Counted from the stretch's first letter, positions 7,474 through 48,074 are shown. The stretch is DNA of 64,000 nt from a virus (IMGVR_UViG_3300014838_000017:18349-82348), one strand, 5' to 3'. The notes: generated from the sequence alone by a model not told the origin. Program-made: numbers and translations.

Positions 7474-7653
7474 ATGGCACAACAACCAAATCCCAATGAG
7501 TTCAAAGTTTGGCAAAATCAGACTCCCGTAGTTAATATTAATACGGATTTAGAGTTTAATGTTTGGCAAAATCAGACTCCCAATGCCGACATTGATGAGA
7601 GTTATCCTATAACCCCCACACAAACAATGCGTCGAAGAGTTATGGAGTTTTAA
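7474..7653 (+). CDS. Small protein with two WQNQTP repeats (59 aa)
   Basis: Short ORF starting 3 nt after the preceding stop. It contains two copies of EF-x-VWQNQTP, each followed by an Asn-Ile or Asp-Ile segment, and ends in a basic MRRRVMEF tail. The duplicated peptide and tight spacing argue that it is real. Function unknown; last gene of the fibre-region transcript. Confidence 0.55.
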   Translation: MAQQPNPNEFKVWQNQTPVVNINTDLEFNVWQNQTPNADIDESYPITPTQTMRRRVMEF

Positions 7654-7686
7654 AAATGTTGTGTAATGTTTTCAGAATCATACAAA

Positions 7687-7694
7687 TATTTATA
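7687..7694 (+). promoter_or_regulatory. Candidate late promoter (TATTTATA)
   Basis: Exact TATTTATA, 4 nt before the ATG at 7699. No Shine-Dalgarno site lies between box and start. Confidence 0.5.
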
Positions 7695-7698
7695 TCAT

Positions 7699-8004
7699 AT
7701 GTCACAAACTAAAAAACTTACAGACGCCGAGTTCTCCGAAATAAAAATGCTGCAAGGCAAATTTCAGGAGAGTATTTTCAAGATGGGAAATCAACAAGTT
7801 CAAAAAATGGAACTTGACCGTCTTGTAACAGAATTTGTTGAAAACGAAAAGAAACTGAAGGACGAGTGGCAATCACTCCAAAAGCTTGAACGAGGTCTCC
7901 TTGACAAGCTCATCCAGAAGTATGGAGAAGGAAGTTTAAACATGACAGATGGGACGATGATAACTCCTGATTCTGTGGTCACAAGTGAACAGAGAAAGGT
8001 ATAA
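7699..8004 (+). CDS. Small coiled-coil protein
   Basis: 101 aa from the ATG at 7699 (MSQTKKLTDAEFSEI). An in-frame ATG at 7666 would add 11 residues but lies upstream of the late-promoter box, so the later start is preferred. Residues 5-75 form a charged amphipathic helix or coiled coil (FVENEKKLKDEWQSLQKLE), followed by a short polar tail. It lies just before the sheath gene. Similar small helical proteins occur beside tail genes in large phages, but no function can be assigned. Confidence 0.7.
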   Translation: MSQTKKLTDAEFSEIKMLQGKFQESIFKMGNQQVQKMELDRLVTEFVENEKKLKDEWQSLQKLERGLLDKLIQKYGEGSLNMTDGTMITPDSVVTSEQRKV

Positions 8005-8032
8005 ATATTTGCATCTTCGTTTTTTTGACATA

Positions 8033-8040
8033 TATTTATA
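8033..8040 (+). promoter_or_regulatory. Candidate late promoter of the sheath gene (TATTTATA)
   Basis: Exact TATTTATA 52 nt before the sheath ATG, leaving a leader of roughly 45 nt. This leader carries a normal Shine-Dalgarno (AAGGA, 8081-8085), unlike the short-leader late genes. The sheath is a high-copy virion protein, so a strong SD-bearing leader fits. Confidence 0.55.
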
Positions 8041-8092
8041 AACTGAAAATATAAACTTTCTCTATCAACAATATTGAAAGAAGGATCATAAT

Positions 8093-11000
8093 ATGCCAAT
8101 AGTTCAAGGTGGATACTTTTCGCCAGATAATAACATCGTCAGCCCGGGTGTATTCACCCGAGAAATAGACCAGTCGCAAGTTGCCCAAGGTGTGGCTCAA
8201 ATTGGCGGTGTCGTAGTGGCCCCATTCGCCCAAGGACCGGGATTTACGCCGACCGTTTGCAACTCTGTCGCCCAACTCCAATCACAATTCGGTATTCCTG
8301 ACGGAACTCTTTACGGACCATATACCGCAACCCAATATCTCCAAGAGAAGGGATTCGTTACTGTGTGCCGTGTTGGTGCTATTACAGGATATTGGCAGCG
8401 TTATCCGTGGTTCATTTGGGCAGAAGAAGGTGTATGGACCCGTGCTAATGACGGTGGATGGACCAATCCATTAGCGTCTACGATTTCTTTCGCCGGTGCT
8501 TATTACTCTGGATCGTTCACAACTCCATATTCCGTAGCTACCACTGTTAGCTATTCTGCAAACATAACTCAATCGGTCTTGACGATCACGAGTGGTTTGT
8601 TCATGTCTTCATTGCTATCATCGTCCATTTCTTACGGTGTGATTTCCGCATCTAAGCAACAAGTCACCCAAAGCTTATACTACGCTGGATCGAGTATCAC
8701 GGGAGCAATTATATTCCCTAACTCGGTAGCTTCTATAACGTTGCAAGCAGGTGCTGCCACTGGTGTTGATTCCTTCGCTCCAAACATCACTAACTCATAT
8801 TCTGTTCCAAATAGTGGTTCCTCCTTGTATAACGGAGATTCAATCACTGGATATGTAACGGGATACTTCCCAATCACAAGTTCGATTAACTTGAACGTGT
8901 CTGTTAGCTTCAATTCGGCATCTATTGTGACCGAACTCCTCGGGGAACAAAAAGTAGTTGGAAACATCCAACTTCAGTATGTTTATGAGGGAAGCAGCAG
9001 TAACTTTAATGTAACGACCGATCCATTTGAAAACGCTGGATTTAGTAACTTGTCTACTACACAAATAAGTCAGTCACTTGACTTCTGCAATAATCCTACG
9101 ATCAACTTCTTGGCTTTGCTTGAAGGTGGAATTGGAAATTATAATGGACAATTTTCTCCAGGTTCCAACGTCACTTACGATCAATGTACGAAGACGTGGG
9201 TTGGTAGTGGTTCGGCTTATAAGGTGCTCGCAGTTCTTGCAAATACTGAATTTGCAGGTCTTGGGACTAACCTCCAAGAATCTGGATTCTATAACTCGGC
9301 CATGAGTTACAGCCCATCCATATCTGGAAGTAATTTCATTAATCATCAATTCAACTTGCAGTTGAGTAATTCATTGGGTGGTGGATATGGAACATATAAC
9401 TTCTCACTTTCTCCTAACGATCCTCAATACATCACAAATGTATTTGGAAATACTGCACAAGCTGGAAATCCATTGACCTATGCTCAGGGAACCAAGATTG
9501 AAGCCGCCTATATTTACTCCATCTTCCAAGATGACATTACGGTTGTTACTTCGAACCCAGTAAACTGGAAAGTTCATGGAACTGTGATGCCTTCAGGATC
9601 ATGGATTGATGAGGCTCTTAACTTCACAGATCAATATTCATTGGACCCCGCATCTGGTGATTCGCAGTATTCTTTGACGAACGCCACAACTCCTTGGGTT
9701 GTCTCTCAACAGATTTCTCCTTGGAATGGTGGACTTCCACATCGTTTCGAACTATTTCAGTTCGCAACTTTGTCTGACGGAACTTACACCAATCAACAGT
9801 TCAAGATTGAAATCAGCAACATTAAACTTGCTGGAACAGTAGCAGGAAGTGATTGGGGAACGTTCGATGTAATCGTTCGATCTTACAGTGACACGGACAA
9901 GAAACCAATTACTCTTGAAACATTCAAGGGTTGCACACTTGATCCAACCTCCACACAGTTTATCGGACGTGCAATTGGTGACCGATACAATTATATTCGC
10001 TACGATGGAAAGATCGTCGAATTTGGAACTTACAGCAACAACAGTACAAACATTCGTGTTATTGTGGCAACCAATCCATATCCATTAACGGCAGTGCCAT
10101 ACGGTTTCGAGGCATATACAACTCCCGTAGCTGGGGAGATGGGTCAATGGTGCAATCCAGTTGCTTATTCCCGTGCTTCTCTCTACAGTGAGAATCCCGG
10201 CAAGTATCCATCTGGTATTGACTTCCAAGGACCACCCGCTGGTGCTGATGCTGAGTTAACCGCATTATATCCAACATCTTCTGCGGGTGTAGGACACTGG
10301 CAGGATAATGAACAATATTTCACCCCAGTTCCAGTTGGTGCCACGGTTGGCAGTAACTTAACATTTGCACTTGATGCATATGATGGTTTGAATGGTGTAG
10401 GAACAGGTTCGTTGCTCAATCCAAATTTGGGTGGTAATGTTCCATCCATCTATGATGCAGCAAATGAACCAACTTACATCAAGATGCGCTCGTTTGTATT
10501 CGGATTCCAAGGTGGATTCGATGGACAAGACCCAGCAATCGAATTGAACATTGGTGAAAGTATTACTGCTGGTAACACTCAAGGTTTGAACTGCGCTACT
10601 AGCACGACCGCAGGTTCGATAGCTTACGCTCAGTGTATCGGTGCTCTCGGAAATGCCGATGAGTTCGACATAAACCTTATCGTAACGCCAGGTATCATCT
10701 ACTCACTCCATCCATATGTGACCAACCTCGTGGTTGAAATGTGCGAGACCCGGGGAGATTGTTTCTACATTCTCGATCTTTATCTCGACACAGGCAACCC
10801 CGGCGAAGGACAGATTGACCAAGTTGTTTCTCTCGCAAGTGAGTTTGACACGAACTATGCAGGAACTTACTATCCTTGGATTAAGATTCTGGATACAAAT
10901 ACAAATGATATTGTAATTGTTCCTCCATCTGTAGTAATCCCCGCAGTTTATGCATCCAATGACCGTGTTGCTGCTGAATGGTGGGCTGCTGCTGGTCTTA

Positions 11001-11534: not shown

Positions 11535-11608
11535 ATGTTATAAAAAATTGATTATTATAATGGTCGTATTATACTTATGAGTATATTCCATGAGAATCGA
11601 TGTATTGT

Positions 11609-13138
11609 ATGACTGAACGAGGCCAAAAAATTAAAGACGCATTTAGGAAAAAATATGGGGTGGATCATCCATCTCAACTCCCATCTGTTAAAGAAAAAAT
11701 TAAACAAAAAAGACTAAATGGAGCATATTCCAACATGATAACAAATATGAAGAAAACATGTATGGAAAAATATGGCGATGCAAATTATAATAATAACGAA
11801 AAAAATAAACAAACCAAACTTGAACGATATGGTGATGCAAATTATAATAATCGGCCCAAGATGATACATACAAACCAAGCGAAATATGGTATGAATGTAT
11901 CGGAAAATACTCTTAAAAGTACATTATATAGATTATCGGAAAATAACATTGGGTTTAATTCGAAAAAATATAAAAGTTTTTTGGATTCTCATGGAGTGAC
12001 TAATATATCTCAACTTTCGTCGGTCAAAAAAATTATACAGGAAAAGAAAACTGATCGGGCCGTAAAAAATATTTTTTTTGGAACTAGATTAAAAGGAACG
12101 GTTATTCCTTTATTTTCCGAAAAAGATTATATTGGAACCGATTATAACACATTATATAAGTTTAAATGTTGTATTTGTAATAATGAATTTGAAGACACAT
12201 TATATTCTGGTAATATTCCACGGTGTTTGGTATGTTATCCTTATAATAAATTCAAGTCTAAGATAGAAATTGACATTTCAGAGTTCTTACAATCCAATAA
12301 TATAAAATGTATATCTCACGATAGAGCCATTCTCAATGGAAATGAAATTGATATATTAATACCAGACAAAAAATTCGGAATTGAAGTGGATGGAATACTT
12401 TGGCATAGTGAGTTATTCGGGAAAAAAGACAGATTATATCATTTAGCTAAAACAAATGCTTCCAAATTAAAAAACGTAGACCTTATTCATGTGTGGGATT
12501 GGGAATGGATAAACAAGGGAGATATAATAAAGAGTATTATCACTAATAGATGTGGTTCAAACAATAGAATATTTGCTAGAAAATGTGGGGTAGTTGATTT
12601 ATCCGAGGATGAAAAAAGTAATTTTTTATGTAATAACCATATACAAGGAAACGACCGCAGTTCTGTTAGATTGGGCCTATTATATAATTCCGAACTTGTT
12701 TCCGTTATGACTTTCTCCAAATCTCGATATGATAAGAAATATGAATGGGAATTAACGAGGTTTTGTAATATATTAAATACATCCATCATTGGAGGTGCTA
12801 GTAAGTTATTTTCTTATTTTTTAAAAAAATACAACCCTAAATCAATAGTATCTTATTCCGATAGAAGATTTTTTACAGGAACCGTTTATATTGCATTAGG
12901 TATGAAATTGGTTGATACGACAATTCCCGGTTATCATTATTTTCATAAAAATAATTGTGTTCCTATAAACCGTCTTCATTTTCAAAAACATAAATTGAAA
13001 TCAATTCTTAAATCATTTGATTCTAATCTCACGGAATGGCAGAATATGCAATTGAATGGTTATGATAGAATTTGGGATTGTGGAAATTTAAAATATGAGT
13101 GGCAGGCTCCATTAATAAGGCAAAATGTTAGCATATAG
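11609..13138 (+). CDS. VSR-like homing endonuclease
   Basis: 509 aa from MTERGQKIKDAFRKKYG; an upstream ATG at 11600 would add three residues. The N-terminal half has repeated KKYG-x-x-x-x-x-Q / EKYGDANYNN modules typical of DNA-binding repeats in phage HEGs. A CC-x-x-C...C-x-x-C zinc element lies near residues 185-210. The nuclease core EIDILIPDKKFGIEVDGILWHSELFG...LIHVWDWEW is a VSR/EDxHD-type fold. The C-terminal domain (GGASKLFSYFLKKY...SYSDRRFF...NGYDRIWDCGN) is shared with the minus-strand HEG at 20392-21951. It is more AT-rich than the sheath gene and sits between two virion genes, as expected for a free-standing mobile gene. Confidence 0.85.
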   Translation: MTERGQKIKDAFRKKYGVDHPSQLPSVKEKIKQKRLNGAYSNMITNMKKTCMEKYGDANYNNNEKNKQTKLERYGDANYNNRPKMIHTNQAKYGMNVSENTLKSTLYRLSENNIGFNSKKYKSFLDSHGVTNISQLSSVKKIIQEKKTDRAVKNIFFGTRLKGTVIPLFSEKDYIGTDYNTLYKFKCCICNNEFEDTLYSGNIPRCLVCYPYNKFKSKIEIDISEFLQSNNIKCISHDRAILNGNEIDILIPDKKFGIEVDGILWHSELFGKKDRLYHLAKTNASKLKNVDLIHVWDWEWINKGDIIKSIITNRCGSNNRIFARKCGVVDLSEDEKSNFLCNNHIQGNDRSSVRLGLLYNSELVSVMTFSKSRYDKKYEWELTRFCNILNTSIIGGASKLFSYFLKKYNPKSIVSYSDRRFFTGTVYIALGMKLVDTTIPGYHYFHKNNCVPINRLHFQKHKLKSILKSFDSNLTEWQNMQLNGYDRIWDCGNLKYEWQAPLIRQNVSI

Positions 13139-20331: not shown

Positions 20332-20397
20332 TGTGAAATTTAAGAACGCCGGTAGACAAGAGGTTGAAGATGTAGACGTGGAACCTATAAATCAATG
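20332..20397 (+). other. Short GTG-start fragment (21 codons)
   Basis: GTG-initiated frame KFKNAGRQEVEDVDVEPINQ ending just inside the 3' end of the opposing HEG. It could be the tail of a gene disrupted by HEG insertion, or chance. Nothing else is visible in the gap between the two HEGs. Confidence 0.2.
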
Positions 20398-21951
20398 AAT
20401 GGTCCATATCCATTTTCCATTGCCACAATCCCAAATCCTATCATATCCATTAACCTTCATATTTTCCCATTCAGATAAAGCGGGGTCAAATGATTTTAGT
20501 TTCATTTTTAATTTATGCTTTTGCCAACAGATTCTATTTTGTGTAGTCTGATAATTATCAATGATATAATATCCATTTGGAGACGTATTTCCCATAAAGT
20601 TAAATCCGAGTTTCATATATACTTTACCGTCAAAATATCTCCGATCACTATACGATACAATGGATGTGGGGTTATATTTTTTAAGAAAATAGGAAAATAA
20701 TTTTGATGCTCCGCCGTGTATTTGATATCCCAATTTGTTACAAAATCTTCCCATTTCATATTGTATTTTTTTATCAAATCTTGATTTTAAAAAAGTCATA
20801 ACCGACATTAAGTTATTAAATTCATCAAACAATCCAAGTTTAATCGATGAGTGATCGGCTCCTTGTAAATGATTTTCCTTTAAAAAATCTACACATATCC
20901 GTGAGGATATTTCACGGACATTACATTTACGCCCGAATATGGTATTCGATGGTTTATTTAGCATAGATGAAATGACTGATTTTACAATATTTTTTTTCAT
21001 TCTCCATTCATTATCCCATATATGAATGAGTCTATATCCTCGTGAAATACAACCAGATGTTTTGTTTAAATGATATATTTTATTTTTATGTCCAAATAAT
21101 TCACTGTGCCAAAGAATACTGTCACATTCAAATGCTATATTTATACTTGGTATAACAATATCCAATTCTTTAGGTGATAGTATTTGCCGGTCGTTTATTT
21201 TTATATCAGTTGTAATATCAACTATCGATTTTATATATTCGTATATTTCACTTTGAAATGTGGATGTGTTATTTTTATCACATGACGGACATATGGGATA
21301 CTTCCCATCATCGATAGAATATGATTTTATAGTACCGCATCTATTACATTTAAAAATATAATCCTGTGCCGCTACTCCTTTAAATTCATCAATTGTAAAT
21401 TGGGGTGTGAAATTTACAAAATTGGGGTGTAAAGTGAATTTTTCAAATGTAGTTTTGTTATGCTTCTGTTTAAATGTCTTACTCATAGATGCATGAGGAA
21501 ATCCATATTTCAATAAACAAGTTAATTTATATTTTTCTTTATATTCTTCCGTCATCATATAGTTCGTTACACCATAACGATCCATACATGTTTTTTTTGC
21601 CTTGTCTTGGTTTAAATAATTTTCATTACCATAAAGTTTAAGTTTTGTTGCCCGAACCCTATTTATCCATCCATCCGATTTGGAAACCCAATCGACTCCA
21701 TATTTTTTCATTACAGAATCTTTTAAATTTTGTTTGGTAGCCTCTGTTTTCATGGGATGCATTCCATATTTTTCCGTAAATGTTTTAACTTGAGATGCAA
21801 TTATCTTTTTCTTTACATCCGGATCTGCATTTGCACATTTTTTCCCGCAATACGTTCGTTTATTTCTTAAGTAATATGATACCGAAAATTTTGTGTGACA
21901 TGTCGGACATGTTTTTTCTATGAACTCTGGTAATGTTTTAGGTCTAGCCAT
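20392..21951 (-). CDS. VSR-like homing endonuclease, minus strand
   Basis: 519 aa, opposite to its neighbours. It has a zinc ribbon (CPTCHTKF...CGKKCAN), then KKYGV / LKYGFPHAS repeat modules, a second zinc pair (CNRCG...CPSC), and a VSR-like core (ELDIVIPSINIAFECDSILWHSELFG...LIHIWDNEW). The C-terminal domain GGASKLFSYFLKKYNPTSIVSYSDRRYF...NGYDRIWDCGN is shared with the HEG at 11609. The two are paralogues in opposite orientation. AT-rich codon use and inverted strand point to independent insertion. Confidence 0.85.
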   Translation of the reverse strand: MARPKTLPEFIEKTCPTCHTKFSVSYYLRNKRTYCGKKCANADPDVKKKIIASQVKTFTEKYGMHPMKTEATKQNLKDSVMKKYGVDWVSKSDGWINRVRATKLKLYGNENYLNQDKAKKTCMDRYGVTNYMMTEEYKEKYKLTCLLKYGFPHASMSKTFKQKHNKTTFEKFTLHPNFVNFTPQFTIDEFKGVAAQDYIFKCNRCGTIKSYSIDDGKYPICPSCDKNNTSTFQSEIYEYIKSIVDITTDIKINDRQILSPKELDIVIPSINIAFECDSILWHSELFGHKNKIYHLNKTSGCISRGYRLIHIWDNEWRMKKNIVKSVISSMLNKPSNTIFGRKCNVREISSRICVDFLKENHLQGADHSSIKLGLFDEFNNLMSVMTFLKSRFDKKIQYEMGRFCNKLGYQIHGGASKLFSYFLKKYNPTSIVSYSDRRYFDGKVYMKLGFNFMGNTSPNGYYIIDNYQTTQNRICWQKHKLKMKLKSFDPALSEWENMKVNGYDRIWDCGNGKWIWTIH

Positions 21952-31467: not shown

Positions 31468-32334
31468 ATGTATAATGTGTTATGGGACGAAAAGCATTAC
31501 ATAGAACCGAATATGAACTCCGAGAACAAAAACGAATCCGTGATAAACGTTATTACCAACGACACCACTATGACATTCTCGAAAGAAGAATGCGAAGATA
31601 CTGGAAATTGGACAAAAAATTGTCCTAAATGTGGGATGAAACAGGTATATTCTTCGTGGGATTCATTAAGATTCGCTATTCGGAAACATACCATATGTAA
31701 TAAATGCCGTGCAAATAAACTAAAAACACGCCCCACCTCTGACAAATGGAAACGAATATGTCCCGCTTGTCAAAAAGAAATTTTGTATAAGTCTGTCAAA
31801 AGTTATTTGCTTTGTGTTAGAACTAAGACAAAATGTCGGAAATGTGGTAGTGCAGAAATAGTAAAACATAGGGATACATCATTTTTTAAAACACAAGAAT
31901 ATCGGAAAAAAATGAGTGAAATTTTAAAAGTTAAACGTAAAACGAATAGCTATGGAGATAGTTTTAAGAAAAAATGTCGTATAAATAGAGCGAAAAGTGC
32001 ATTGTTGGGAGTTCAAAACAAGCCAAATTATAATAAAAATGCGTGTTTATTTATTGATGCTATAAATAAGAAATTCGGGTGGAATTTGCAACATGCTGAA
32101 AGTGGGGGGGAGAAGGTCGTGGAAGGATTTTTTCTGGATGGGTATGATGATGGAAGGAATATTGTTTTTGAGTATGATGAGCCTAAACATAATACATTGT
32201 CGCATGAAAAACGAGACCGAATAAAAGAAAAAGTAGTGATAAAGAAAATAAGTCCTTGGAAATTTATTCGATTTAGTGAAAAATACAATAAATTGTATGA
32301 TATTATAAACGGGGAGGAAATTATATGGCAGTAA
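31468..32334 (+). CDS. Zinc-finger / PD-(D/E)xK-like homing endonuclease
   Basis: 288-codon ORF. From residue ~49, NCPKCG...CNKCRANK and CPACQKE...CRKCG form two zinc ribbons. The C-terminal nuclease carries GFFLDGYDDGRNIVFEYDEPKHNTLSHEKRDRIKEK, a VSR/DUF559-like D...E-Y-D-E-x-K-H core. The first ~45 codons lie antiphase over the conserved MGR ORF and show little conservation between cassettes, so the native N-terminus may come from that ORF. It overlaps the next hub gene by 10 nt and supplies its SD (GGGAGG), so translation is coupled. Confidence 0.8.
   Translation: MYNVLWDEKHYIEPNMNSENKNESVINVITNDTTMTFSKEECEDTGNWTKNCPKCGMKQVYSSWDSLRFAIRKHTICNKCRANKLKTRPTSDKWKRICPACQKEILYKSVKSYLLCVRTKTKCRKCGSAEIVKHRDTSFFKTQEYRKKMSEILKVKRKTNSYGDSFKKKCRINRAKSALLGVQNKPNYNKNACLFIDAINKKFGWNLQHAESGGEKVVEGFFLDGYDDGRNIVFEYDEPKHNTLSHEKRDRIKEKVVIKKISPWKFIRFSEKYNKLYDIINGEEIIWQ
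31482..31628 (+). CDS. MGR leader ORF of HEG cassette 2 (48 aa)
   Basis: Starts MGRKALHRTEYELREQKR and is about half identical to the ORF at 19630. It ends DKKLS at an A6 run whose surroundings (ACAAAAAATTGTCC) recur at the same place in cassette 3. The nuclease frame is +1. A TATGTATA box lies 7 nt upstream. Confidence 0.55.
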   Translation: MGRKALHRTEYELREQKRIRDKRYYQRHHYDILERRMRRYWKLDKKLS

Positions 32335-34808
32335 CAAATAATTCTCCAAATCCTGGTAGTGGAGGAGACCCATCGGTAGTTATACCTTGGGAGCCGTGCA
32401 ACTTCCCAATAGCTTTGCAAGATGAATTAAATCGTCGTAAAAAGAATCGAAGTCTTCGTTATGTTCAATCCACGCAAGGAAACTGGGATAGTCAAAATGG
32501 TGATTGGTCAAAATATCGGGGTCCGATGGTTCCGTGGGTTCGTCTGTGTTCAAATAGCAAAGGAAAACGAGGAACGACTGGTAAAGAAGGGTTCGTTCTG
32601 TTTGGTGGTAAAGGATTCTACACGGATTATGGATTCACTGCCGCAAAAAATAACCCATCGGTTATTGGATATGTTCCCAATGGACAGAATGCTACGCATA
32701 CTATTGATAATGATATTAATGAACAGTATCCCATTCACGTTCCCGCTCCTGAGATTGAAAAGATTAGTGTAAGCATTCAGAAGGAACTCTATCGTCGGGT
32801 TGAAATCGAGTGGGTGTGTTTTTCTAAAAAGCAGTTGGAATACATGACCCCATACTTCCTAGTTCCGGGAATATCAGCAATTATGGAGTGGGGATGGAAT
32901 CATTACAATCCAGTGTCATTGATAGATTTGTCTGACACGGGGACACTGCAAGATTACTTCAATAACCCATATTCTCTCTACACCAATAACATCATTAAGT
33001 CTAGAGGAAATTATGATGTTATTTTTGGAATTGTGACAAACTTTGGATGGACGGTTGACGGAAACAAGTTCCGATGCAAAACCGAAATCACTTCCAAAGA
33101 TCGTATCTATTCTGGGTTAATCGTGGATTCTACGGTTACAGAGAAATCATCAACTGGTGAGGACGCCGAGACTAAGGATAAGCCGTTTGACAGTCTGACT
33201 CAATTCATTGATAAGTCACTCGACCTGTTTCGTAATGTAGTCACTCAAACACCAGATTCTATATCGGACCTTTCGGCTTTATGTTCGTATATTCGAGCGG
33301 CACACCCAACTAATGCAAACGAATATTTGTATGGTGTATTTACGGGTCGAGACCCGAAGGATTTAAAGAACAAATTTGCGAAGGGTGCCAACACAAATTA
33401 TGATTTTGATTGTTTGAATAAGAACTCGGAATTATGGGTTAACCTTGGACTTGTCATTGAAGTATTAAACTTCCACGCAAAGTTGAAAGCTACCAAGGGA
33501 AAAGAAATGTTTCGAGTAGATATTGATGACGTGGTTGTTAGTGCCCACCCCAATATGATTTCAAGTGATGGGTCCATTTGTTTGATTCCAAATTGGGAAT
33601 CTCCACATTATTTCTATGGAAAATATGGCATTCGTGAGGCTATACATAATGATAAGTCGGGTATTGGGCTTCCTCTTAATCCTCCATCGAGCACTAATGG
33701 GCCTATTTCGTTTCCATCAAAACATGCAGACGCAATAAAATCTAAGCAGGCAGCAGATTGGAGATTAGGTAGAATATGTGGACAATTTAATAAAGCGTAT
33801 AGGGATGATATTGACCAAATTATTAATGCGGTTCGTTATGAAAATGGCGTCCCGGCGGGAACTTGCTGCTTTCCATTCAAGAAACCTACCCAAGGACTAA
33901 ATAACAATCCATATCCCCCCCATTTCTCTGGATATTTGAGAAATATTTATGTGAGCGTGTCTTACTTGAAAGCATTGTTGGATAATAGCTCGGATATTAC
34001 AACGTATCTTCAACTCGTTGAGAAATTAGCATCTGATATTAATGGCGCATGTGGAACATTTTGGGACTTGAGATTGGTAAGTGCTCCCGGCGATGCGAAA
34101 ATATCCAATACAGATGCTGCCCCCATGAAACTTGTAGACTACAAGTTCATGTACTTTTCCAATCGTGGAAAAGTATGGTCGTTTGATTATTTTGATGCTG
34201 ACAGTTTGTTGCAGGGTATTGGATTCAACCCGACATTGAGCAATGCTCAAGCAATTCGAACCATTTATTCCCCAACGAACAATGTTGATAAGAATATAGT
34301 CATAACGAATGGTGACAATGAACTTCTTGACTATGGTGCTGAAGATAGGTTAAACTTGGGACAAAATGTGGGAAATACGTCATCGTCAACTTCGACTGAA
34401 GACACCAGTGGGTTTGACGACACGATGCGGGCATTACAACAAATCGAACCTCCGACTGATGGGTCGTACCAAATAACATCGAATGGAACCGTTTATCGTC
34501 TTGCGCTTCCCGCCAGTGATATTCAGAAACTTTTACTTGATGATAGCGATGAGGATAACAATCCTAAATACACTGGAATCATGCCGGGTATTCAGGCGAC
34601 ATTTACCGTTCAAGGTATTGGAGGTCTTCGAACTTTCATGATGTTTTTGTGCAAAAACTTGGCCGATCCATATTCCGAGAATAATATTGTGTTTAGAATT
34701 GTTAATGTTGAGGAAAATATTGAGCCGGGAAAATGGACCACCACGATAACGGCGGGCGTTATTCCTCTGCGTGGATTTATAAAATCACGCCTTGGAATCT
34801 CGCCTTAA
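32325..34808 (+). CDS. Baseplate hub-like structural protein
   Basis: 827 aa, start supported by GGGGAGG about 8 nt upstream. The central region has SVSIQKELYRRVEIEWVCFSKKQLEYMTPYFLVPGISAIMEWGWNHYNP and IIKSRGNYDVIFGIVTNFGWTVDGNKFRC, a pattern seen in hub or spike-adaptor proteins (gp27-analogue position) of large myophages. The C-terminus (QATFTVQGIGGLRTFMMFLCKNL...FRIVNVEENIEPGKWTTTITAGVIPL) resembles the tube-like fold of hub proteins. Last gene of the late module, ending before an early-type promoter. Exact T4 equivalent uncertain. Confidence 0.65.
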   Translation: MAVTNNSPNPGSGGDPSVVIPWEPCNFPIALQDELNRRKKNRSLRYVQSTQGNWDSQNGDWSKYRGPMVPWVRLCSNSKGKRGTTGKEGFVLFGGKGFYTDYGFTAAKNNPSVIGYVPNGQNATHTIDNDINEQYPIHVPAPEIEKISVSIQKELYRRVEIEWVCFSKKQLEYMTPYFLVPGISAIMEWGWNHYNPVSLIDLSDTGTLQDYFNNPYSLYTNNIIKSRGNYDVIFGIVTNFGWTVDGNKFRCKTEITSKDRIYSGLIVDSTVTEKSSTGEDAETKDKPFDSLTQFIDKSLDLFRNVVTQTPDSISDLSALCSYIRAAHPTNANEYLYGVFTGRDPKDLKNKFAKGANTNYDFDCLNKNSELWVNLGLVIEVLNFHAKLKATKGKEMFRVDIDDVVVSAHPNMISSDGSICLIPNWESPHYFYGKYGIREAIHNDKSGIGLPLNPPSSTNGPISFPSKHADAIKSKQAADWRLGRICGQFNKAYRDDIDQIINAVRYENGVPAGTCCFPFKKPTQGLNNNPYPPHFSGYLRNIYVSVSYLKALLDNSSDITTYLQLVEKLASDINGACGTFWDLRLVSAPGDAKISNTDAAPMKLVDYKFMYFSNRGKVWSFDYFDADSLLQGIGFNPTLSNAQAIRTIYSPTNNVDKNIVITNGDNELLDYGAEDRLNLGQNVGNTSSSTSTEDTSGFDDTMRALQQIEPPTDGSYQITSNGTVYRLALPASDIQKLLLDDSDEDNNPKYTGIMPGIQATFTVQGIGGLRTFMMFLCKNLADPYSENNIVFRIVNVEENIEPGKWTTTITAGVIPLRGFIKSRLGISP

Positions 34809-34840: not shown

Positions 34841-34849
34841 GAGTGGTTG

Positions 34850-36196
34850 ATGATCGAAACACCCACAGACCTCATACGCTTTCAACTTGAAAATCAAGTT
34901 GGAGATTGGATTGTTCACGTCGTTCCCGTAGCAGATATTCATCCTGTCATTTCCACTTCAAGTCTTCTATTCATCCGAAACATTCTAACGGGTAAAACAT
35001 ATTACTATTCTTTTAATCATCCCGATTCCAAACCTTGTAATTTGTTATTCGATGAAATAATTCGCAAATCTTCCAACCGAAAATGGGCACTCGATAAAAA
35101 GGCATTTGACCAAATGTTTCGAGGAGTTTCAAACACACTTGATGCCAATGCGTTGGCGTGGATGTGTGGGGAGGATGTCCTCGAACTGTCAGAATATGAT
35201 ACTCCTGCCCATTATCTTATTCGTAAAAATGCGGCGGGACATGAGCGATTAAATCTTGTCATTCCGTTGATGAAGCACAAGGAAATGTTTGATGATTTGG
35301 CAAATGATTTGAGTGAACTCATAAAAGATTTTTCTCCGGATTCTACATTTACTCGGTTTAATGATCTTATTATAGGGACGTTGGGAGATTTGGAAACACA
35401 GGGAATTTCTGTGGACCCGACTCTTTTTAGAGAACGATATAAACAAGAACCTGAGATCAATAACATGGTGCATAGTCAATATAATGTCTATACATCTACA
35501 GGAAGACCAAGCAACAGTTTTAATGGCGTAAACTATGCGGCACTGAATCAGAGTGATGGCACTAGAAAATGTTTTCGTTCTAGGTATGGGGCTGATGGTT
35601 GTATGGCAGTTCTCGACTATACGAGTTTTCATCCACGTATAGTTAGCCACATGGTTAAACACGAGGTTCCACTCGATGTTGACATTTATGCCTATCTCGC
35701 CAAACTTTACTTCCATAAGAAAGATGTGGATGAGACAGATGTTAAAAATTCTAAATCGTTGACATTCAGACAGTTTTATGGAGGTATTGAAGATAAGTAT
35801 TTGCACATAAAATACTTGGCTAACATTAAGAGTTTTACTGAAGAACAATGGGAGTTATTTAACACCCGAGGATATGTTGAAACACCGTTCTTTAAGCGTA
35901 GGATCACGTCCAAGCACATTTCAGAGCCTAATCCTCCCAAAGTATTCAATTACATTCTTCAAGCCACAGAGGGCGAACTAAGCATTCCAAAGGTAAAGTC
36001 TGTGCTTGCTCATTTGGTAGGCAAACAGACAAAAGCGGTGCTTTACACTTACGATGCTATTCTCTATGACTTTTACAAGCCCGAGGGAATGAAGTTGCTT
36101 CGTGAATTGAAGAGTATAATGAGTTTTGATGGACGCTTTCCAATGAAGGCTTACATAGGTGAAACCTATAATGATATGAAGCTTATCACGTTATAG
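34850..36196 (+). CDS. Family A DNA polymerase, short form
   Basis: 448 aa. Polymerase signatures: TSTGRPSNSFNGVNYAALN (the 'TGRLSS..PN-Q-N' strand), motif A CMAVLDYTSFHPRIVSHM with catalytic D256, motif B KSLTFRQFYGG near 303-312, and motif C LYTYDAILYDF with D402. Motif C lacks the usual His-Asp-Glu; it reads Tyr-Asp-Ala. The N-terminal ~180 residues have an exonuclease-like size, but no DxE motif is visible, so proofreading must come from elsewhere or be absent. Compact family A polymerases with separate exonucleases are known in the far-T4 Rhodothermus phage RM378. First gene of the replication module. Confidence 0.85.
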   Translation: MIETPTDLIRFQLENQVGDWIVHVVPVADIHPVISTSSLLFIRNILTGKTYYYSFNHPDSKPCNLLFDEIIRKSSNRKWALDKKAFDQMFRGVSNTLDANALAWMCGEDVLELSEYDTPAHYLIRKNAAGHERLNLVIPLMKHKEMFDDLANDLSELIKDFSPDSTFTRFNDLIIGTLGDLETQGISVDPTLFRERYKQEPEINNMVHSQYNVYTSTGRPSNSFNGVNYAALNQSDGTRKCFRSRYGADGCMAVLDYTSFHPRIVSHMVKHEVPLDVDIYAYLAKLYFHKKDVDETDVKNSKSLTFRQFYGGIEDKYLHIKYLANIKSFTEEQWELFNTRGYVETPFFKRRITSKHISEPNPPKVFNYILQATEGELSIPKVKSVLAHLVGKQTKAVLYTYDAILYDFYKPEGMKLLRELKSIMSFDGRFPMKAYIGETYNDMKLITL

Positions 36197-41946: not shown

Positions 41947-42296
41947 AAAAGTATAAACTGTTAAGATTCGGACATTGCTATGTTAATAGAGATGGAACCT
42001 TTATTATTGGTCTTGTGGGTGGAAATAAGCGACACGGTTATACTATGTTAGCAAGTCATGCTCATCCGTATGTTTTTTTACAAAACATTAATGTCATGTC
42101 ACGGATAGTTCCTAATGATGGAAATTGGATGGAAATAACGCCCTATCAATATAATGCTATTTCTTCGTATCATGCGGATGGGTACATAGTAAAGCCCTCC
42201 CCGAAGGGAGGGCCATTTGTGATCTCTAAGTTTATCCCTTCCAGTCTTTCGGTGGAACAGAATATTTGTTCCCTACAAATGGTTCCGGAAAACTAA
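41943..42296 (+). CDS. Small hypothetical protein
   Basis: 117 aa. KKYKLLRFGHCYVNRDGTFIIGLVGG...YTMLASHAHPYVFLQ looks like a small beta fold. Its last ~35 codons run through a hairpin terminator used by the opposite strand and 65 nt into the 3' end of that gene, so the native C-terminus may have been extended by loss of a stop. Function unknown. Confidence 0.55.
   Translation: MKKYKLLRFGHCYVNRDGTFIIGLVGGNKRHGYTMLASHAHPYVFLQNINVMSRIVPNDGNWMEITPYQYNAISSYHADGYIVKPSPKGGPFVISKFIPSSLSVEQNICSLQMVPEN
42188..42213 (-). terminator. UUCG-tetraloop terminator for the minus-strand gene
   Basis: On the minus strand: GCCCTCCC-TTCG-GGGAGGGC followed by TTTACT. An 8-bp GC stem closed by the very stable C(UUCG)G tetraloop, as in many T4 terminators, 19 nt after the stop of the gene at 42232. 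The trailing T run is short. Confidence 0.75.
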
Positions 42297-43155
42297 CTTG
42301 CTTTTCATTTCCAAGGGGCACACCCATTTCAACAAGTGACTCACGGCTGGCGTAATAGATGTTGGTTGTAAGTGCGAGAATACCTTTTTCGAATTCAACC
42401 TCAATGACTCGGCTTTCTTTCGATTCTCCGTAACGGGTGCCCATATCGAATCCTTGGGGTTTTACATGAGAACGAAGCATGTTAGTAGATTGTCCTCCAG
42501 CCATCGTTCTACCTCTTGATGCACCTTTGGTTGGAATGTGGTCGCATGAATATTTTTCTGGACCGGAACTCCGTTCACGTTCTACATCTCCAAATCCGAT
42601 ACTGTTATCGGCAGAATCCATTGTGGGATCACTATTACATGTGCTTCCGTATAGTGTGCAGGTTGGAGGGCCGTAAGGATTCCACGTTGGAGTCCACGGG
42701 TTAATGGGATAGTCGTGATGATGGTGATGATGCTCTTCCCTCACGATGATTGGAGTAGGAGGCAAGGGCTTAATTTTCTCATTGAAGAGACGAACGCCGA
42801 TTACACCGACATTTTTTTCCGATCCGTCTTCTTTGGAAGCAGCATAAGAACCGCCTTTGTAATCGAATAGGAACCTGGCAACCTTTTCGTCAGAAATACG
42901 GAATCCGTCAATTTTGACAGAATTGTTTCCATTGATGACATAACCGTTTCCATTTTCATCGGCTTTTTTGCCGTTGAGAATGTCGAGACCATCCACGGAA
43001 CAGACCGCAAGAATGCGCTGCCATGAATTATTTTTGATGCGGATTGAGTATTCGGCTCCCTTGTGTGCTTCGACAAAAAGTTTGCCGTCATGTGGGAATT
43101 GCCTGAGAGGTTTATCGTTGACCAGGATGTCAACTGTGTAGTTTTCGTTTGTCAT
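42232..43155 (-). CDS. Hypothetical protein with natural His6 segment, minus strand
   Basis: 307 aa, divergent from the helicase gene. The N-terminal domain (YTVDILVNDKPLRQFPHDGKLFVEAHKGAEYSIRIKNNSWQRILAVCSVDGLDILNGKKA...VGVIGVRLF) belongs to a family I recall as uncharacterised proteins in bacteria and phages. A linker EEHHHHHHDYPINPW precedes a Gly/Ser-rich C-terminal part. SD TAGGAG lies 10 nt before the ATG, and it has its own terminator. Its isolation between two plus-strand operons suggests independent, perhaps host-like, regulation. Function unknown. Confidence 0.75.
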   Translation of the reverse strand: MTNENYTVDILVNDKPLRQFPHDGKLFVEAHKGAEYSIRIKNNSWQRILAVCSVDGLDILNGKKADENGNGYVINGNNSVKIDGFRISDEKVARFLFDYKGGSYAASKEDGSEKNVGVIGVRLFNEKIKPLPPTPIIVREEHHHHHHDYPINPWTPTWNPYGPPTCTLYGSTCNSDPTMDSADNSIGFGDVERERSSGPEKYSCDHIPTKGASRGRTMAGGQSTNMLRSHVKPQGFDMGTRYGESKESRVIEVEFEKGILALTTNIYYASRESLVEMGVPLGNEKQVSFPEPFVGNKYSVPPKDWKG

Positions 43156-43335: not shown

Positions 43336-44178
43336 ATGGAACTAAATCAAGGTGAAGTAAACAACCTCAAGAAGTTTGGCACTGCATTTCAAGCCAAATG
43401 CCTAGCAGCAATGCTTTCCGACCGTGCATTTTTGGAACGTGTCATTGACATCGTATCTCCCGATTTCTTCGAAACTGATGCCCATAAATGGGTTGTCAAG
43501 TTTATCGCATCGTATTTTCCGACGTATCATGACACCCCTACAATGGCTGTGTTTGCATGTGAAATTCAAAAGATTCCCGATGCTGTATTGAATATGGCAG
43601 TGAAGGAACAAGTAAAAATTTGTTACCTAGAAGTATCTACCGCAAAAGACCTAACTTACGTGAAGGAACAGTTTTTGTCATTCTGCCGCAACCAGAAGTT
43701 GAAAAATGCTATTTGGGCCTCGGAAGCACTTTTGAAGCAAGGTAACTACGAAGGTATTTGGAATGCCATTAACGAGGCATCCAAAGCAGGAATGGAACGT
43801 GATCTAGGTCATGAGTATCTCGCTGATATGGACAAGCGTATGTCCGCAATGGCCCGTGAGACAGTGAAGACCAACTGGCCGATTATTGATACCCATCTTG
43901 ATGGCGGGCTTGGAAAAGGTGAACTTGGGTTTGTTGTTGCGCCAGCGGGCGCAGGTAAGTGCGTTGGGCCAAATACCGAAATTGAAATCAAGTATATGGA
44001 TACCGGAATTCCGGTCGTTGGTAACTCAGGTAAGGAATATATCATTTGGATTAAACCATTTGAGAAATTTGATTTCGATGGAAAAATATTATATGGGTGG
44101 CAAATCGATAATATTTTCTTTGAACTTGAGAAAATGAAGTCGCAACTACTGGGACGGGAAAATATACAGAAAAAGTGA
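43336..44178 (+). CDS. gp41 helicase N-terminal part + N-fragment of split intein 1
   Basis: 280 aa. Residues 1-208 are the N-terminal half of a T4 gp41/DnaB-type replicative helicase, ending in the Walker A sequence APAGAGK. Residue C209 (base 43960) starts an intein: CVGPNTEIEIKYMDTG is block A. The remaining 72 residues contain no block B, so the split lies unusually early. The ORF stops and a HEG follows; the rest of the intein resumes at 45218. Splicing would join K208 to the Ser that completes the P-loop (GAGK-S). Promoter-proximal gene of the fractured operon. Confidence 0.9.
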   Translation: MELNQGEVNNLKKFGTAFQAKCLAAMLSDRAFLERVIDIVSPDFFETDAHKWVVKFIASYFPTYHDTPTMAVFACEIQKIPDAVLNMAVKEQVKICYLEVSTAKDLTYVKEQFLSFCRNQKLKNAIWASEALLKQGNYEGIWNAINEASKAGMERDLGHEYLADMDKRMSAMARETVKTNWPIIDTHLDGGLGKGELGFVVAPAGAGKCVGPNTEIEIKYMDTGIPVVGNSGKEYIIWIKPFEKFDFDGKILYGWQIDNIFFELEKMKSQLLGRENIQKK

Positions 44179-44297
44179 AGTTTTTGTGTCTGTGTTAATA
44201 TGTATAAGAGATCATGAAAGTAAAAATGTTATCCGAATTGCTTCATGGGAATTTTCTCTGATAAATTGCGATGGTTATCAATCATATACAAATAAGG

Positions 44298-45221
44298 ATG
44301 AATAAGTTAAAATGTCAAATTTGTGGATTTGAGGGAATGAATTTAGTAACTCACTTGAAGTTTAAGCATTTTCAGTCGGTGGACGATTATCGAAAGAAAT
44401 ATGGACAGCGCCAAGTTTATCTTCACTCCGACGAATTGCGGAATAAAATTTCAAATACACTTAAAAAATTAAATGAAAATATAGAATTTAGGCGAGAAAA
44501 TTCCAATCGTCAGAAAAATGGCGCTTCGTGTTTAACAATTAAGTATTGGACGAATAGGGGGGTCTCCGAAGAAAATGCTCGAATAAAAATATCCGAATTA
44601 CAAAAAAATAATTGTCGGAAACATTTGGTCAATGGTGATTTACAGGAATGTTCACATTTTTCTACCAAATATTGGATAAAGCGAGGATGCACTGAACAGG
44701 AAGCGATTAAAAATGTGTATAACATACAGAGTGAACTATCATCCAAATCTTCTAAATTTCAGGGACATATTCATACCGATGAAGAAAAAGAAAGAATTTC
44801 ATCGTCTCTCAAAAAGATGATTGATGTTGTGGGAAGGGGAAAATGGGCACGCCATTTTGGGGAGTTTAATGGTCGTAGTAAAGCTGAAATCGAGTTTTAC
44901 AATTACATAAAGGAAAACATAGATTTGTCAGTTCAAGCAAATGTTTCCGTCGGAAATTATATTGTAGATGTTATTAAAACTCGGAAAATAATTGAATTTT
45001 ATGGTGATTTTTGGCACGCCAATCCATTGATTTTTTCTAAATGTAATAAGTTGTATCCACATGGCCGACGTGTTATGATGGCGGAAGATATATGGAAAAA
45101 GGATAATGCTCGTATATCTTGGCTGAGAAGTGAGGGGTATGAAGTTTTAATTGTATGGGAAACGGAGTGGAAAAAGCAAAAAGAAGTGTGTATTGAAAAG
45201 ATTAGGAAATATCTGTTATGA
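44298..45221 (+). CDS. VSR-like homing endonuclease in split intein 1
   Basis: 307 aa from MNKLKCQICG; an ATG at 44271 adds nine residues. An N-terminal C2H2-like finger (CQICGFEGMNLVTHLKFKH) is followed by 'TIKYWTNRGVSEENA' / 'STKYWIKRGCTEQEA' repeats that probably bind DNA. The nuclease core is VGNYIVDVIKTRKIIEFYGDFWHANP...DIWKKDNARISWLRSEGYEVLIVWETEW, the VSR-like fold described for HEGs inside fractured intein genes. The stop overlaps the start of the next helicase piece (ATGA), so that piece is translated by coupling to the HEG. Confidence 0.88.
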   Translation: MNKLKCQICGFEGMNLVTHLKFKHFQSVDDYRKKYGQRQVYLHSDELRNKISNTLKKLNENIEFRRENSNRQKNGASCLTIKYWTNRGVSEENARIKISELQKNNCRKHLVNGDLQECSHFSTKYWIKRGCTEQEAIKNVYNIQSELSSKSSKFQGHIHTDEEKERISSSLKKMIDVVGRGKWARHFGEFNGRSKAEIEFYNYIKENIDLSVQANVSVGNYIVDVIKTRKIIEFYGDFWHANPLIFSKCNKLYPHGRRVMMAEDIWKKDNARISWLRSEGYEVLIVWETEWKKQKEVCIEKIRKYLL

Positions 45222-46357
45222 TTTATAAGCGTGTTACGACCGAGAAAATAAAGATGGTAGAATTGTTTTCCCGCCTTGGCGTGGAGAACAAAGAAAATGC
45301 CAAGATTTCCGTCCCATTTCCGTTGGGAGTGAATACTCCATACGGATACAAAAATATTATCACGGTATTTAGGACCGAAAAGCAGCGGGCAGTGACGACC
45401 TATTTCAAAAATAATAAGACATTGAAAACTTCCAATGATCATTTATTGAAAGTAAATGGCGATTGGAAGAAAGTCCGGGACATTGTAAAATCCGATATTA
45501 TCGAAACTGAAGTGGGAACGACCTCTATAAAGATGCAACATATTGGGAAGTTGGAAATTTTATATGATATTTCGGTGGAAGATGTACATTGTTATTATTC
45601 GAACGGTATAGTATCTCATAATTCGTGGGTATTAGCTCATCTTGGGGCCGAGGCTATGCTGCAAGGTAAGAACGTTATGCATTTCACGATGGAGTTGAAT
45701 GCGGAGTATGTTGGCCTTCGCTACGACTCTATCTTTTCGGGAGTAGCATTTCAAGACGTTCGGAAGAATCGACCACTTGTTCAGAAGAAAGTTGATGAAA
45801 TCAAGGCCAAGGGCTGTGGGAAACTCTTCATTAAATATTTTCCTACCAAGACTACATCGCCCGCTTCATTGAAGATGCATATTGAACGATTGCAGTTGAT
45901 CACTGGTGTCAAAATTGATTTCGTGGTCGTTGATTATGCCGACTTACTTCGTCCATTCATGCAAGATCGCAACTCCAACAGTTATAGCATTGGGGGCGAT
46001 ATTTATGGTGAACTTCGTGGTGTTATGGGAGAACTCCAAGTTCCTGGTTGGTCGGCGAGTCAAAGTAATAGATGTCTAACTTTAGACACGAAGGTTATAG
46101 TAAAACGTAATAATTTACATGATATGGAAGATATAATAGGGAATATCAAAGTAGGTGATCAACTACTTACGCATTGTGGTTATAAATATGTATCTCGTGT
46201 ATTTCCAATACAGACACAACCGGTGTATAAAATTTGTTTAAAAAGCGGTAAAACTATAACATGTTCGGCGAATCATGAATTCCCATTAAAATATGGAATT
46301 TTAAGATCAATTAGTGATGGTCTCTCTGTTGGAGATAAATTATTTACTAAAAAGTGA
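45218..46357 (+). CDS. Intein 1 C-fragment + middle helicase part + intein 2 N-fragment
   Basis: 379 aa with three parts. Residues 1-135 are the C-fragment of intein 1, including block B (KTSNDHLLKV) and blocks F/G ending VHCYYSNGIVSHN, with N135 followed by +1 Ser. Residues 136-285 are 150 residues of helicase (SWVLAHLGAEAMLQGKNVMHFTMEL...VDFVVVDYADLL Walker B...PGWSASQSNR). C286 (base 46073) begins intein 2 (CLTLDTKVIV...CLKSGKTITCSANHEFPLK...SVGDKLF), 94 residues with blocks A and B, very like the known gp41-8 split intein and at the same QSNR junction. Confidence 0.92.
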   Translation: MIYKRVTTEKIKMVELFSRLGVENKENAKISVPFPLGVNTPYGYKNIITVFRTEKQRAVTTYFKNNKTLKTSNDHLLKVNGDWKKVRDIVKSDIIETEVGTTSIKMQHIGKLEILYDISVEDVHCYYSNGIVSHNSWVLAHLGAEAMLQGKNVMHFTMELNAEYVGLRYDSIFSGVAFQDVRKNRPLVQKKVDEIKAKGCGKLFIKYFPTKTTSPASLKMHIERLQLITGVKIDFVVVDYADLLRPFMQDRNSNSYSIGGDIYGELRGVMGELQVPGWSASQSNRCLTLDTKVIVKRNNLHDMEDIIGNIKVGDQLLTHCGYKYVSRVFPIQTQPVYKICLKSGKTITCSANHEFPLKYGILRSISDGLSVGDKLFTKK

Positions 46358-46390
46358 TATTTTGGGTTACACTCCATATTTATTATATAT

Positions 46391-47602
46391 ATGAAAGAAC
46401 TTTATTATAAGGATAGAAATCATTTTTTAAGTCAAAAATTTGCAATTTTATTTGAAAAAACTCTAAGTCAACATTCGTTAATGCAAATTGATAATATTAT
46501 TAAGAGATTTAACAAAAAGTATCTTAATAATATTAAAAAAGACATGGTAATTAATTTACTAAAATATAATGTTGATGGTGATTGGGTTGATCGATTATTG
46601 AAAAGTGAAAAATTTAAAAAAGATGGATTCTCGTGGGATTCTTGTCAATTACGATATGGAAATGTAGGCGAAAAAATATTTCATGATAGAGTAGAAATGA
46701 TAAGGCATACTAGAGAAAAATATACGGAAGAACAATGGAAAAAAATATGTGTTAGTAAACGTTCCAATCTTGGTCTGAAGGGTTATATTTTAAAATATGG
46801 TGAGACGGATGGAACTCAGAGATGGAATTCTTATTTGAAGAAATGGAAAATTGGAATTAATAAGAAGAAAAAATATGGGTGGAATAGTGGATGTACGCTT
46901 GAAAATTTTCAAAGATTATATGGGGTGCTAGAGGGATATAATATATGGAAAAATAAATCTATAAAACATAAAAAATCATTATCCTTGGATGGATATATTG
47001 AAAAATATGGGATGTACAATGGAACTAAAATGTGGAAAGAGGCGTGTAATAATAGAGCCGTAACATCATTATCAGCATTTATTAAACGGTATGGTAAAAT
47101 CGACGGTGCATTACGACATAAAATTCTTTGCCATCGGCTTTCCTATATTAGTTCGGAGGCATATTATATCGAAAAATATGGAGAAAAACTGGGAACTGAA
47201 AAATATAAAGAAAAAATAATAAGAGCGTCCGAACATAAATTTGATGGATATAGTAAAATATCGCAGGAATTATTTTGGGAAATATATAATAGACTATATG
47301 ATCAATTAAAATTGGAATGTCATTTTCATAGTTTGGATTATGAAGTTTATTTTTTTGTAAATAAAGAGTGGGCTAAAATAATAAATGTCGATTTCAAATG
47401 TAGGAATGCTATAATTGAATTCGATGGTACATATTGGCATCAATTGCCCTTTCATGTTAAACGAGACCCTCTACGAGATCAATATTTGATTGAACGTAAG
47501 TATAAAATTTTGAGAGTAAAAGAAGCCGATTATAATAATAATAAGCAACGAATGATTGATATGTGTGTTAAGTTTGTAAAGGAAAATTATGAAAACCCAT
47601 AA
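46391..47602 (+). CDS. VSR-like homing endonuclease in split intein 2
   Basis: 403 aa. A long N-terminal array of KYG-x-x-x-G-T/A-x-x-W modules (ILKYGETDGTQRW, IEKYGMYNGTKMW, IKRYGKIDGALRH, IEKYGEKLGTEKY) probably reads DNA. The C-terminal core INVDFKCRNAIIEFDGTYWHQLP...DQYLIERKYKILRVKEADY has the VSR-like D...E-x-D-G-x-x-W-H pattern. Very AT-rich compared with the helicase. Starts 33 nt after the preceding stop and overlaps the last helicase piece by 14 nt. Confidence 0.85.
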   Translation: MKELYYKDRNHFLSQKFAILFEKTLSQHSLMQIDNIIKRFNKKYLNNIKKDMVINLLKYNVDGDWVDRLLKSEKFKKDGFSWDSCQLRYGNVGEKIFHDRVEMIRHTREKYTEEQWKKICVSKRSNLGLKGYILKYGETDGTQRWNSYLKKWKIGINKKKKYGWNSGCTLENFQRLYGVLEGYNIWKNKSIKHKKSLSLDGYIEKYGMYNGTKMWKEACNNRAVTSLSAFIKRYGKIDGALRHKILCHRLSYISSEAYYIEKYGEKLGTEKYKEKIIRASEHKFDGYSKISQELFWEIYNRLYDQLKLECHFHSLDYEVYFFVNKEWAKIINVDFKCRNAIIEFDGTYWHQLPFHVKRDPLRDQYLIERKYKILRVKEADYNNNKQRMIDMCVKFVKENYENP

Positions 47603-48074
47603 ATTGAACCCAATGGAATTCTCAATGGATGAAATTATAAGCATTGACTGTATCGGAGATGCTCCTACGGTGGATATTACGGTAGAAGATGTTCATATGT
47701 TTTATGCCAATGATATTTATACGCATAATAGTGTTCATGAAAGTGACATTATTGAAGCTGGCGACGTAGCTGATAGTTATCAGAAAATTATGATCGGTGA
47801 TTTTATTATGTCTTTGTCCCGTAAAAAGGAAGATAAGATGGCGGGCACTGGACGCATGTATATTATGAAGAATCGGTTTGGTCCCGATGGAACTTGGTAT
47901 CCATTGTCATTCGATGCATCGTGTGGAAAAATCGACCTCTACGAACAAAACTCAGTCGAAGCGAATGAAATAATTAGTCGAGTGAAGACCGTTGAAGACC
48001 AACTTAAAGAAATTTTTAAAAAGTCTTGGAACGAGAATAAGAAAAAACAGAGCGGCGATAACAGTGGTTCCTAA
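47589..48074 (+). CDS. Intein 2 C-fragment + helicase C-terminal part
   Basis: 161 aa. Residues 1-47 (MDEIISIDCIGDAPTVDITVEDVHMFYANDIYTHN) are a canonical C-intein with block F and block G, N47 followed by +1 Ser. Residues 48-161 (SVHESDIIEAGDVADSYQKIMIGDFIMSL...GRMYIMKNRFGPDG) are the helicase C-terminal end. Together the extein parts are 208 + 150 + 114 = 472 residues, matching T4 gp41 (475). Confidence 0.92.
   Translation: MKTHKLNPMEFSMDEIISIDCIGDAPTVDITVEDVHMFYANDIYTHNSVHESDIIEAGDVADSYQKIMIGDFIMSLSRKKEDKMAGTGRMYIMKNRFGPDGTWYPLSFDASCGKIDLYEQNSVEANEIISRVKTVEDQLKEIFKKSWNENKKKQSGDNSGS

Follow-up and report, generated by a model that had tools for sequence, protein, structure and literature searches.

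A phage replicative helicase gene very probably invaded at two sites by unrelated split-intein homing elements

How can a replicative helicase be produced from a gene that is interrupted twice, once within its Walker A motif? This question is raised by a viral stretch of 64,000 nucleotides (IMGVR_UViG_3300014838_000017:18349-82348), here called the window, in which positions 43336-48074 contain five co-oriented open reading frames (ORFs) in the order ORF1, HE1, ORF3, HE2 and ORF5. An earlier note, made from the sequence alone, had read the interval as three ORFs encoding successive parts of a helicase fused to the halves of two different split inteins (helicase-IntN1, IntC1-helicase-IntN2 and IntC2-helicase, where IntN and IntC are the N- and C-terminal intein fragments). 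That architecture is borne out by the anatomy of the ORFs and by intein profile matches, and the helicase pieces do number three, but HE1 and HE2, both putative free-standing endonuclease genes, had been overlooked. Two unrelated split-intein homing elements have very probably entered the helicase gene, each at its own site, so that its product would be assembled from three pieces by protein trans-splicing; this reading is directly supported by the anatomy of the locus, the exact insertion sites, purifying selection, sporadic gain and loss, and a linked flank codon. The features are as follows, with lengths in amino acids (aa).

43336-44178, + strand: ORF1, 280 aa (208 aa of helicase and 72 aa of IntN1)
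43336..43959, + strand: extein 1, the N-terminal helicase part, 208 aa, with the C-terminus ...APAGAGK (Walker A Lys); phrog_19, 1.3e-22, model 163-366
43960..44175, + strand (stop codon to 44178): IntN1, 72 aa, with block A CVGPNTEIEI and a conserved extension of ~55 aa
44271-45221, + strand: HE1, putative free-standing endonuclease, 316 aa from the ATG at 44271 (homologues suggest a start at 44298)
45218-46357, + strand: ORF3, 379 aa (135 aa of IntC1, 150 aa of helicase and 94 aa of IntN2)
45218..45622, + strand: IntC1, 135 aa, with blocks N2 (KIKMVELFSRLG), B (SxxH at 72-75), F and G (SHN)
45623..46072, + strand: extein 2, the middle helicase part, 150 aa, from SWVL... to ...SASQSNR; phrog_19, 2e-25, model 367-507
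46073..46354, + strand: IntN2, 94 aa, with Cys1 in block A and SxxH (SANH) in block B; Intein_splicing PF14890, 8e-11
46391-47602, + strand: HE2, putative free-standing endonuclease, 403 aa, with repeated GYIEKYG..G..W motifs
47589-48074, + strand: ORF5, 161 aa (47 aa of IntC2 and 114 aa of helicase)
47589..47729, + strand: IntC2, 47 aa, with blocks F and G, ending in ...YTHN; TIGR01443, 1.1e-5, above the curated cut-off
47730..48071, + strand: extein 3, the C-terminal helicase part, 114 aa, starting with SVHESD (Ser+1); phrog_19, 4e-10, model 511-610

The three exteins match successive, non-overlapping stretches of the PHROG helicase model phrog_19, and the product of the three ORFs is, judged by homology over the full extein length including Walker A, a phage replicative helicase of the gp41/DnaB type, as had been proposed. 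The exteins add up to the 472 aa calculated earlier (208+150+114); the uninterrupted helicase of the intein-free relative L009 measures 468 aa, with 86% identity to extein 1 and 86-87% to exteins 1-2. Both junctions, K208|C209 ... SHN|S at site 1 (GAGK|C, in Walker A) and SQSNR|C ... YTHN|S at site 2, are exact in comparison with intein-free relatives, which are continuous across GSGK|SW and SQSNR|GVHE with 0 nucleotides (nt) inserted; the precision ascribed to them in the note holds, as does the separation of the Walker A Lys from its Ser by intein 1. An intact helicase elsewhere, which would have told against the note, was not found: the 82,348-bp virus record, itself a fragment, contains no helicase match beyond the three pieces, and its only intein C-terminal motifs are those of IntC1 and IntC2. 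A nucleotide search of GenBank phages gave no match, and a promoter and terminator scan returned sites no more numerous than in shuffled sequences. With an endonuclease gene between the halves of each intein, the locus reads as one gene that is doubly "fractured", the fractured-gene layout occurring twice.

Intein 2 has the features of a class 1 intein with a canonical split between blocks B and F (94 + 47 aa), and its sequence profile indicates a Hint fold. A profile of IntN2 matched the structure of the gp41-1 intein (PDB 6qaz) at 3e-20; Cys1 and SxxH are kept in 7 IntN2 rows, and IntC2 is 55-70% identical in five relatives. The likeness to the canonical split inteins gp41-8 and gp41-1 extends to the 94+47 aa, Cys1, SxxH and HN|S, and intein 2 is assigned, by sequence, as a new member of the gp41-8 type.

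The two inteins are different, as had been noted, but the nature of the difference had been missed: intein 1 is split atypically. Alignments (A6 and A8) to the contiguous intein that occupies this site in L096, where the helicase precursor of 669 aa is unbroken, place the split point after block A and before block N2, with N2 and SxxH in IntC1. A search against Hint and intein profiles, of the kind that the note had suggested, gave, in addition to the matches of intein 2 listed above, matches of IntC1 to PT-HINT (8e-6) and TIGR01443 (3.6e-6, above the curated cut-off); an IntC1 profile also matched the gp41-1, Cat and VidaL intein structures. A profile of IntN1 alone matched no solved structure, and no relatives of IntC1 were found in cellular genomes. 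The class 1 residues (Cys1, block B SxxH, terminal HN and Ser+1) are invariant in 10 aligned carriers of intein 1, and IntN1 is 40-85% identical in more than 20 other viral contigs. Compared with L004, the proportions of non-synonymous (pN) and synonymous (pS) differences in IntN1 are 0.07 and 0.63, and the extension is likewise under purifying selection (pN 0.085 vs pS 0.46). Unusually low synonymous change in the extension (pS 0.46-0.48 vs 0.8, against L004) was considered and discarded, as it was not reproduced in every pair. The 204-aa intein of L096 contains the extension segment in one frame. AlphaFold2 (AF2) run on a single sequence reached a predicted local distance difference test score (pLDDT) of 33; the AF2 model of L096, the natural contiguous homologue, built from alignment A8, has a pLDDT of 80-96 in the part equivalent to IntC1 and matches intein structures with E-values down to 1.5e-6 (VidaL, root-mean-square deviation 2.1 and TM score 0.70; gp41-1, 1.6 and 0.70; Cat was also matched). 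On this model, intein 1 is predicted to adopt the Hint fold.

Published natural atypical split inteins, of the S1 split (VidaL, PolB16) or the S2 split (AceL, GOS), have an IntN of 15-37 aa (PMC13014065), namely 15-16 aa for S1 and 25-37 aa for S2 (AceL/GOS-TerL, Cat) (PMC13014065, PMC10189870, PMC11766414). Intein 1 is like the S1 type in being split near its N-terminus, before block N2, and the profile and model of its IntC match VidaL and Cat. Unlike in VidaL, PolB16, AceL and Cat, its IntN measures 72 aa (33-74 aa in relatives), beyond the published range because of the conserved extension. Since the split point fits S1 and the length of IntN1 does not, intein 1 is best described as an S1-like variant rather than a plain S1 member, and represents a new sequence family of early-split inteins. 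Another early-split intein, of the AceL type, was seen in terL of Delftia phage PhiW-14 (L085, 1938-2560), where the terminase large subunit lies in two ORFs with no endonuclease; its IntN ends just past block N2, and the annotation gives the second ORF alone as gp17.

HE1 lies between IntN1 and IntC1, and HE2 between IntN2 and IntC2; the end of HE1, with its stop, and ORF3 have 4 nt in common, and HE2 and ORF5 have 14 nt. Following a finger-like N-terminus (CxxC...H-x4-H), HE1 has a Vsr/DUF559-like C-terminal core (IVDV...IIEFYGDFWH), and a core of this kind (VDF...IIEFDGTYWH) also ends HE2. Profile matches were to MTES_1575 (5e-5), DUF559 (1e-4) and phrog_22677 (3e-16) for HE1, and to MTES_1575 (9e-6) and phrog_22677 (2e-17) for HE2. 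Residues D233/E242/W248/H249 are invariant in HE1, and the catalytic-type residues are common to HE2. Elsewhere in the window, two large ORFs that resemble HNH homing endonucleases and belong to a single family (phrog_3339) lie near structural genes at 11600-13138 (+) and 20392-21951 (-), the latter with a weak Vsr-type match within it.

In 2009, Dassa et al. reportedly described fractured genes that combine split inteins and homing endonucleases of a Vsr-like kind, with gp41 among the conserved phage DNA-metabolism genes concerned; the precedent given in the note was correct. The locus shares with that type a conserved phage DNA-metabolism gene, a split intein and a free-standing, possibly Vsr-like endonuclease gene between the intein halves, and differs from it in that a single gene has two fractures, made by inteins that are split in different ways. 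No doubly fractured gene was found in literature searches, which did not take in Dassa 2009 or Carvajal-Vallejos 2012. In the cultured T4-type Shigella phage ESh36 (Tequatrovirus, ON528746.1, L320), gp41 is broken into two ORFs around an endonuclease-like ORF, but the fracture is single and lies elsewhere in the gene (SDIAE|C ... TKN|S, where Lys replaces the usual His before Asn); this locus (2843-5823) is annotated as two 'DNA primase/helicase' genes. In L036, intein-like and endonuclease-like matches (8032-10117) adjoin a fractured helicase, which suggests that this phage has a second fractured gene. Replicative helicases with two inteins, one of which sits in the P-loop directly behind the Walker A Lys, are known: Mycobacterium smegmatis DnaB (PMC6195587) and haloarchaeal MCM (PMC10643990). 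Those inteins are contiguous and lie in one polypeptide, whereas here three polypeptides are needed because both inteins are split; the second site also differs, following the SQxNR motif here and reported in motif H4 in M. smegmatis DnaB (PMC6195587).

Is this arrangement peculiar to the window? Searches seeded with the locus, whose counts describe the sequences returned and not population frequencies, revealed each stage at both sites among IMG/VR relatives: no intein, a split intein that has or lacks the endonuclease, and a contiguous intein. Site 1 is empty in L009-L012, L014-L021 and many more; split with HE1 in L004-L007, L024, L026-L033, L090, L108, L116, L132 and L137; split with HE1 lost or reduced to a remnant in L106, L107 and L130; and occupied by a contiguous intein in L096, L135 and L268. 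At site 2, the canonical intein occurs in many diverse helicases (119 confirmed IntN2 relatives, with and without HE2), and a contiguous intein in one case (L301). Over both sites, split inteins are kept after endonuclease loss in L106, L107, L130, L233, L243 and L283; in L107 the endonucleases have decayed to remnants and both split inteins are intact. Both sites are split in six contigs (the window, L031, L032, L107, L113/L130 and L232), a recurrence that had been overlooked when the arrangement was called striking. Two breaks of different design in one gene are rare, though made of parts of known kinds. Distant helicases (24-28% identity; L237, L242, L251, L274 and L283) combine a contiguous Walker A intein that starts with Ala, Glu or Ser with a site-2 split intein; both sites have therefore been invaded repeatedly, by different elements. 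As a separate observation, the contiguous Walker A inteins of L237, L242, L251, L274, L283, L289, L291, L295 and L304 (260-369 aa, mostly alongside a site-2 split intein) start with Ala, Glu or Ser instead of Cys and are class-3-like. L135 has several overlapping HE2 matches at site 2 (5260-5540, 7206-9005), as if the repeat domain were duplicated, and its extein 1 contains an in-frame stop.

The distribution fits a mobile element. A tree of 96 helicases shows 18 changes of occupancy at site 1 and 12 at site 2, and the nearest relative of the window, L009, is empty at both sites. The site 1 Ser+1 codon is TCN in 21/21 carriers with Ser, against 34 TCN and 29 AGY in empty sites (Fisher p 3e-5), with TCG in the window and AGT in L009; in phylogenetically independent pairs the TCN codon goes with the intein in ~8 against 0 (median p 0.008). 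Identity to the nearest empty sister is lower in the 60 nt adjoining the insert in 9/11 pairs (p 0.007 vs empty-empty controls). Of the site 2 carriers, 21/21 have Ser or Cys at +1, a position at which about half of the empty sites have Gly, Ala or another residue. Co-conversion during homing would explain both the TCN linkage and the drop in flank identity; for the codon, but not for the drop, a preference of HE1 for certain targets could also account. The sequences thus indicate both marks of a homing element, a sporadic distribution and co-converted flanks. Joint occupancy of the two sites showed no significant excess over expectation (4.0 vs 1.3 pairs, p 0.4).

Several points weigh against two-site invasion by homing elements. 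We infer the splicing, the endonuclease activity and the orthogonality of the inteins. The endonuclease assignment of HE1 and HE2 relies on weak profile scores: profile A7 matched Vsr structures at 0.004 over the catalytic core, a weak score, and the mobile-intron EDxHD homing endonuclease structure 3r3p at only 0.41. The first 77 residues of the L096 model, including the IntN1 extension, are of low confidence; the pair formed by the window and L009 has no drop in flank identity; and the TCN linkage may reflect the target-site preference of HE1 and not co-conversion. Finally, the phage, known from a fragment, could carry an intact helicase elsewhere.

Of the alternatives, the one that survives best, though unlikely, is that three-piece assembly is a regulatory device retained to the benefit of the phage, delaying helicase activation or making it conditional on the synthesis of all pieces or on redox state at the two Cys1 residues. 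The outlasting of the endonuclease by split inteins at both sites, in the six relatives named above, speaks for it, as does the redox-sensitive P-loop intein of the contiguous two-intein DnaB of M. smegmatis (PMC6195587). The very patchy distribution and frequent gain and loss, however, fit selfish homing, and persistence after endonuclease loss is expected anyway because intein loss must be precise. That the helicase is broken and non-functional, the locus being an assembly chimera or a decaying pseudogene, might be suspected from five ORFs with frame changes in a metagenomic assembly, but is very improbable: five or more other contigs are split at both sites with identical junctions, purifying selection acts on the exteins and the intein fragments, the frames are open with gene-like overlaps, and L107 keeps both split inteins intact though its endonucleases have decayed. 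It is hardly credible that self-splicing introns with intron-encoded endonucleases, removed as RNA, replace the split inteins or lie inside them, for although Vsr-like endonucleases are said (by Dassa et al. in 2009) to occur in group I introns too and ~119-250 nt around 44010-44297 are not obviously coding at first sight, an Rfam scan found no intron family at gathering or even permissive thresholds, the intein halves on either side keep their residues and blocks intact, the extension of IntN1 is conserved as protein and is read through in frame in the L096 intein, and hardly any non-coding DNA is left beside HE2 at site 2.

Under invasion by two split-intein elements, the gene would be expressed as three proteins, E1-IntN1, IntC1-E2-IntN2 and IntC2-E3, where E1 to E3 are the exteins. 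IntN1 would pair with IntC1 and IntN2 with IntC2, each pair folding into a Hint domain, and splicing by the class 1 pathway (Cys1, block B SxxH, terminal His-Asn and Ser+1) would join E1 to E2 and E2 to E3 into one helicase of ~472 residues. Until the first splice has taken place, Lys and Ser of Walker A would be on different chains, and the motif would nowhere be complete. HE1 and HE2, whose genes within the inteins account for the splitting of the helicase gene, would cut intein-free helicase alleles, and repair would copy the whole IntN-HE-IntC insert. The topology of the middle protein, IntC-protein-IntN, is that of a laboratory design for protein cyclisation, and cross-pairing must therefore be avoided, for which different split points would help. 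A mispair of IntN1 (block A and the extension) with IntC2 (F-G) could not form a complete Hint domain because N2 to N4 would be absent, and skipping of the middle piece should therefore be prevented. Two neighbouring inteins in haloarchaeal MCM are suggested to hinder each other's simultaneous homing (PMC10643990), and by this analogy the two sites were likely invaded stepwise.

In the neighbourhood of the locus, an ORF on the opposite strand, immediately upstream of the helicase (42232-43155, -), encodes a natural run of six histidines (EEHHHHHHDYP). Alongside the gp41-type helicase, the window contains a DNA polymerase match at 34847-36196 that is limited to the C-terminal part and belongs to family A (PF00476); the remaining part of the polymerase was not recognised in the ORF upstream of it (32325-34808).

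We further propose, tentatively and at odds slightly short of even, that the helicase is a natural, recurrent three-polypeptide protein joined by two trans-splicing reactions that are orthogonal and differ in topology, one using an atypical split with a long structured IntN and the other a canonical split, with the split points themselves blocking mispairing. If true, no natural case of a single protein made by tandem trans-splicing would have been described before, and intein 1, with its extended IntN, would define a new kind among the atypical split inteins. Protein engineers aim at tandem trans-splicing from three segments (PMC12707363), for which the locus offers a natural candidate, in an essential enzyme and in at least six viral contigs; the pair of intein 1 and intein 2 would be useful if fast and orthogonal. 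Because these loci hold every stage at two fixed sites, it becomes possible to test in what order inteins split, home and decay.

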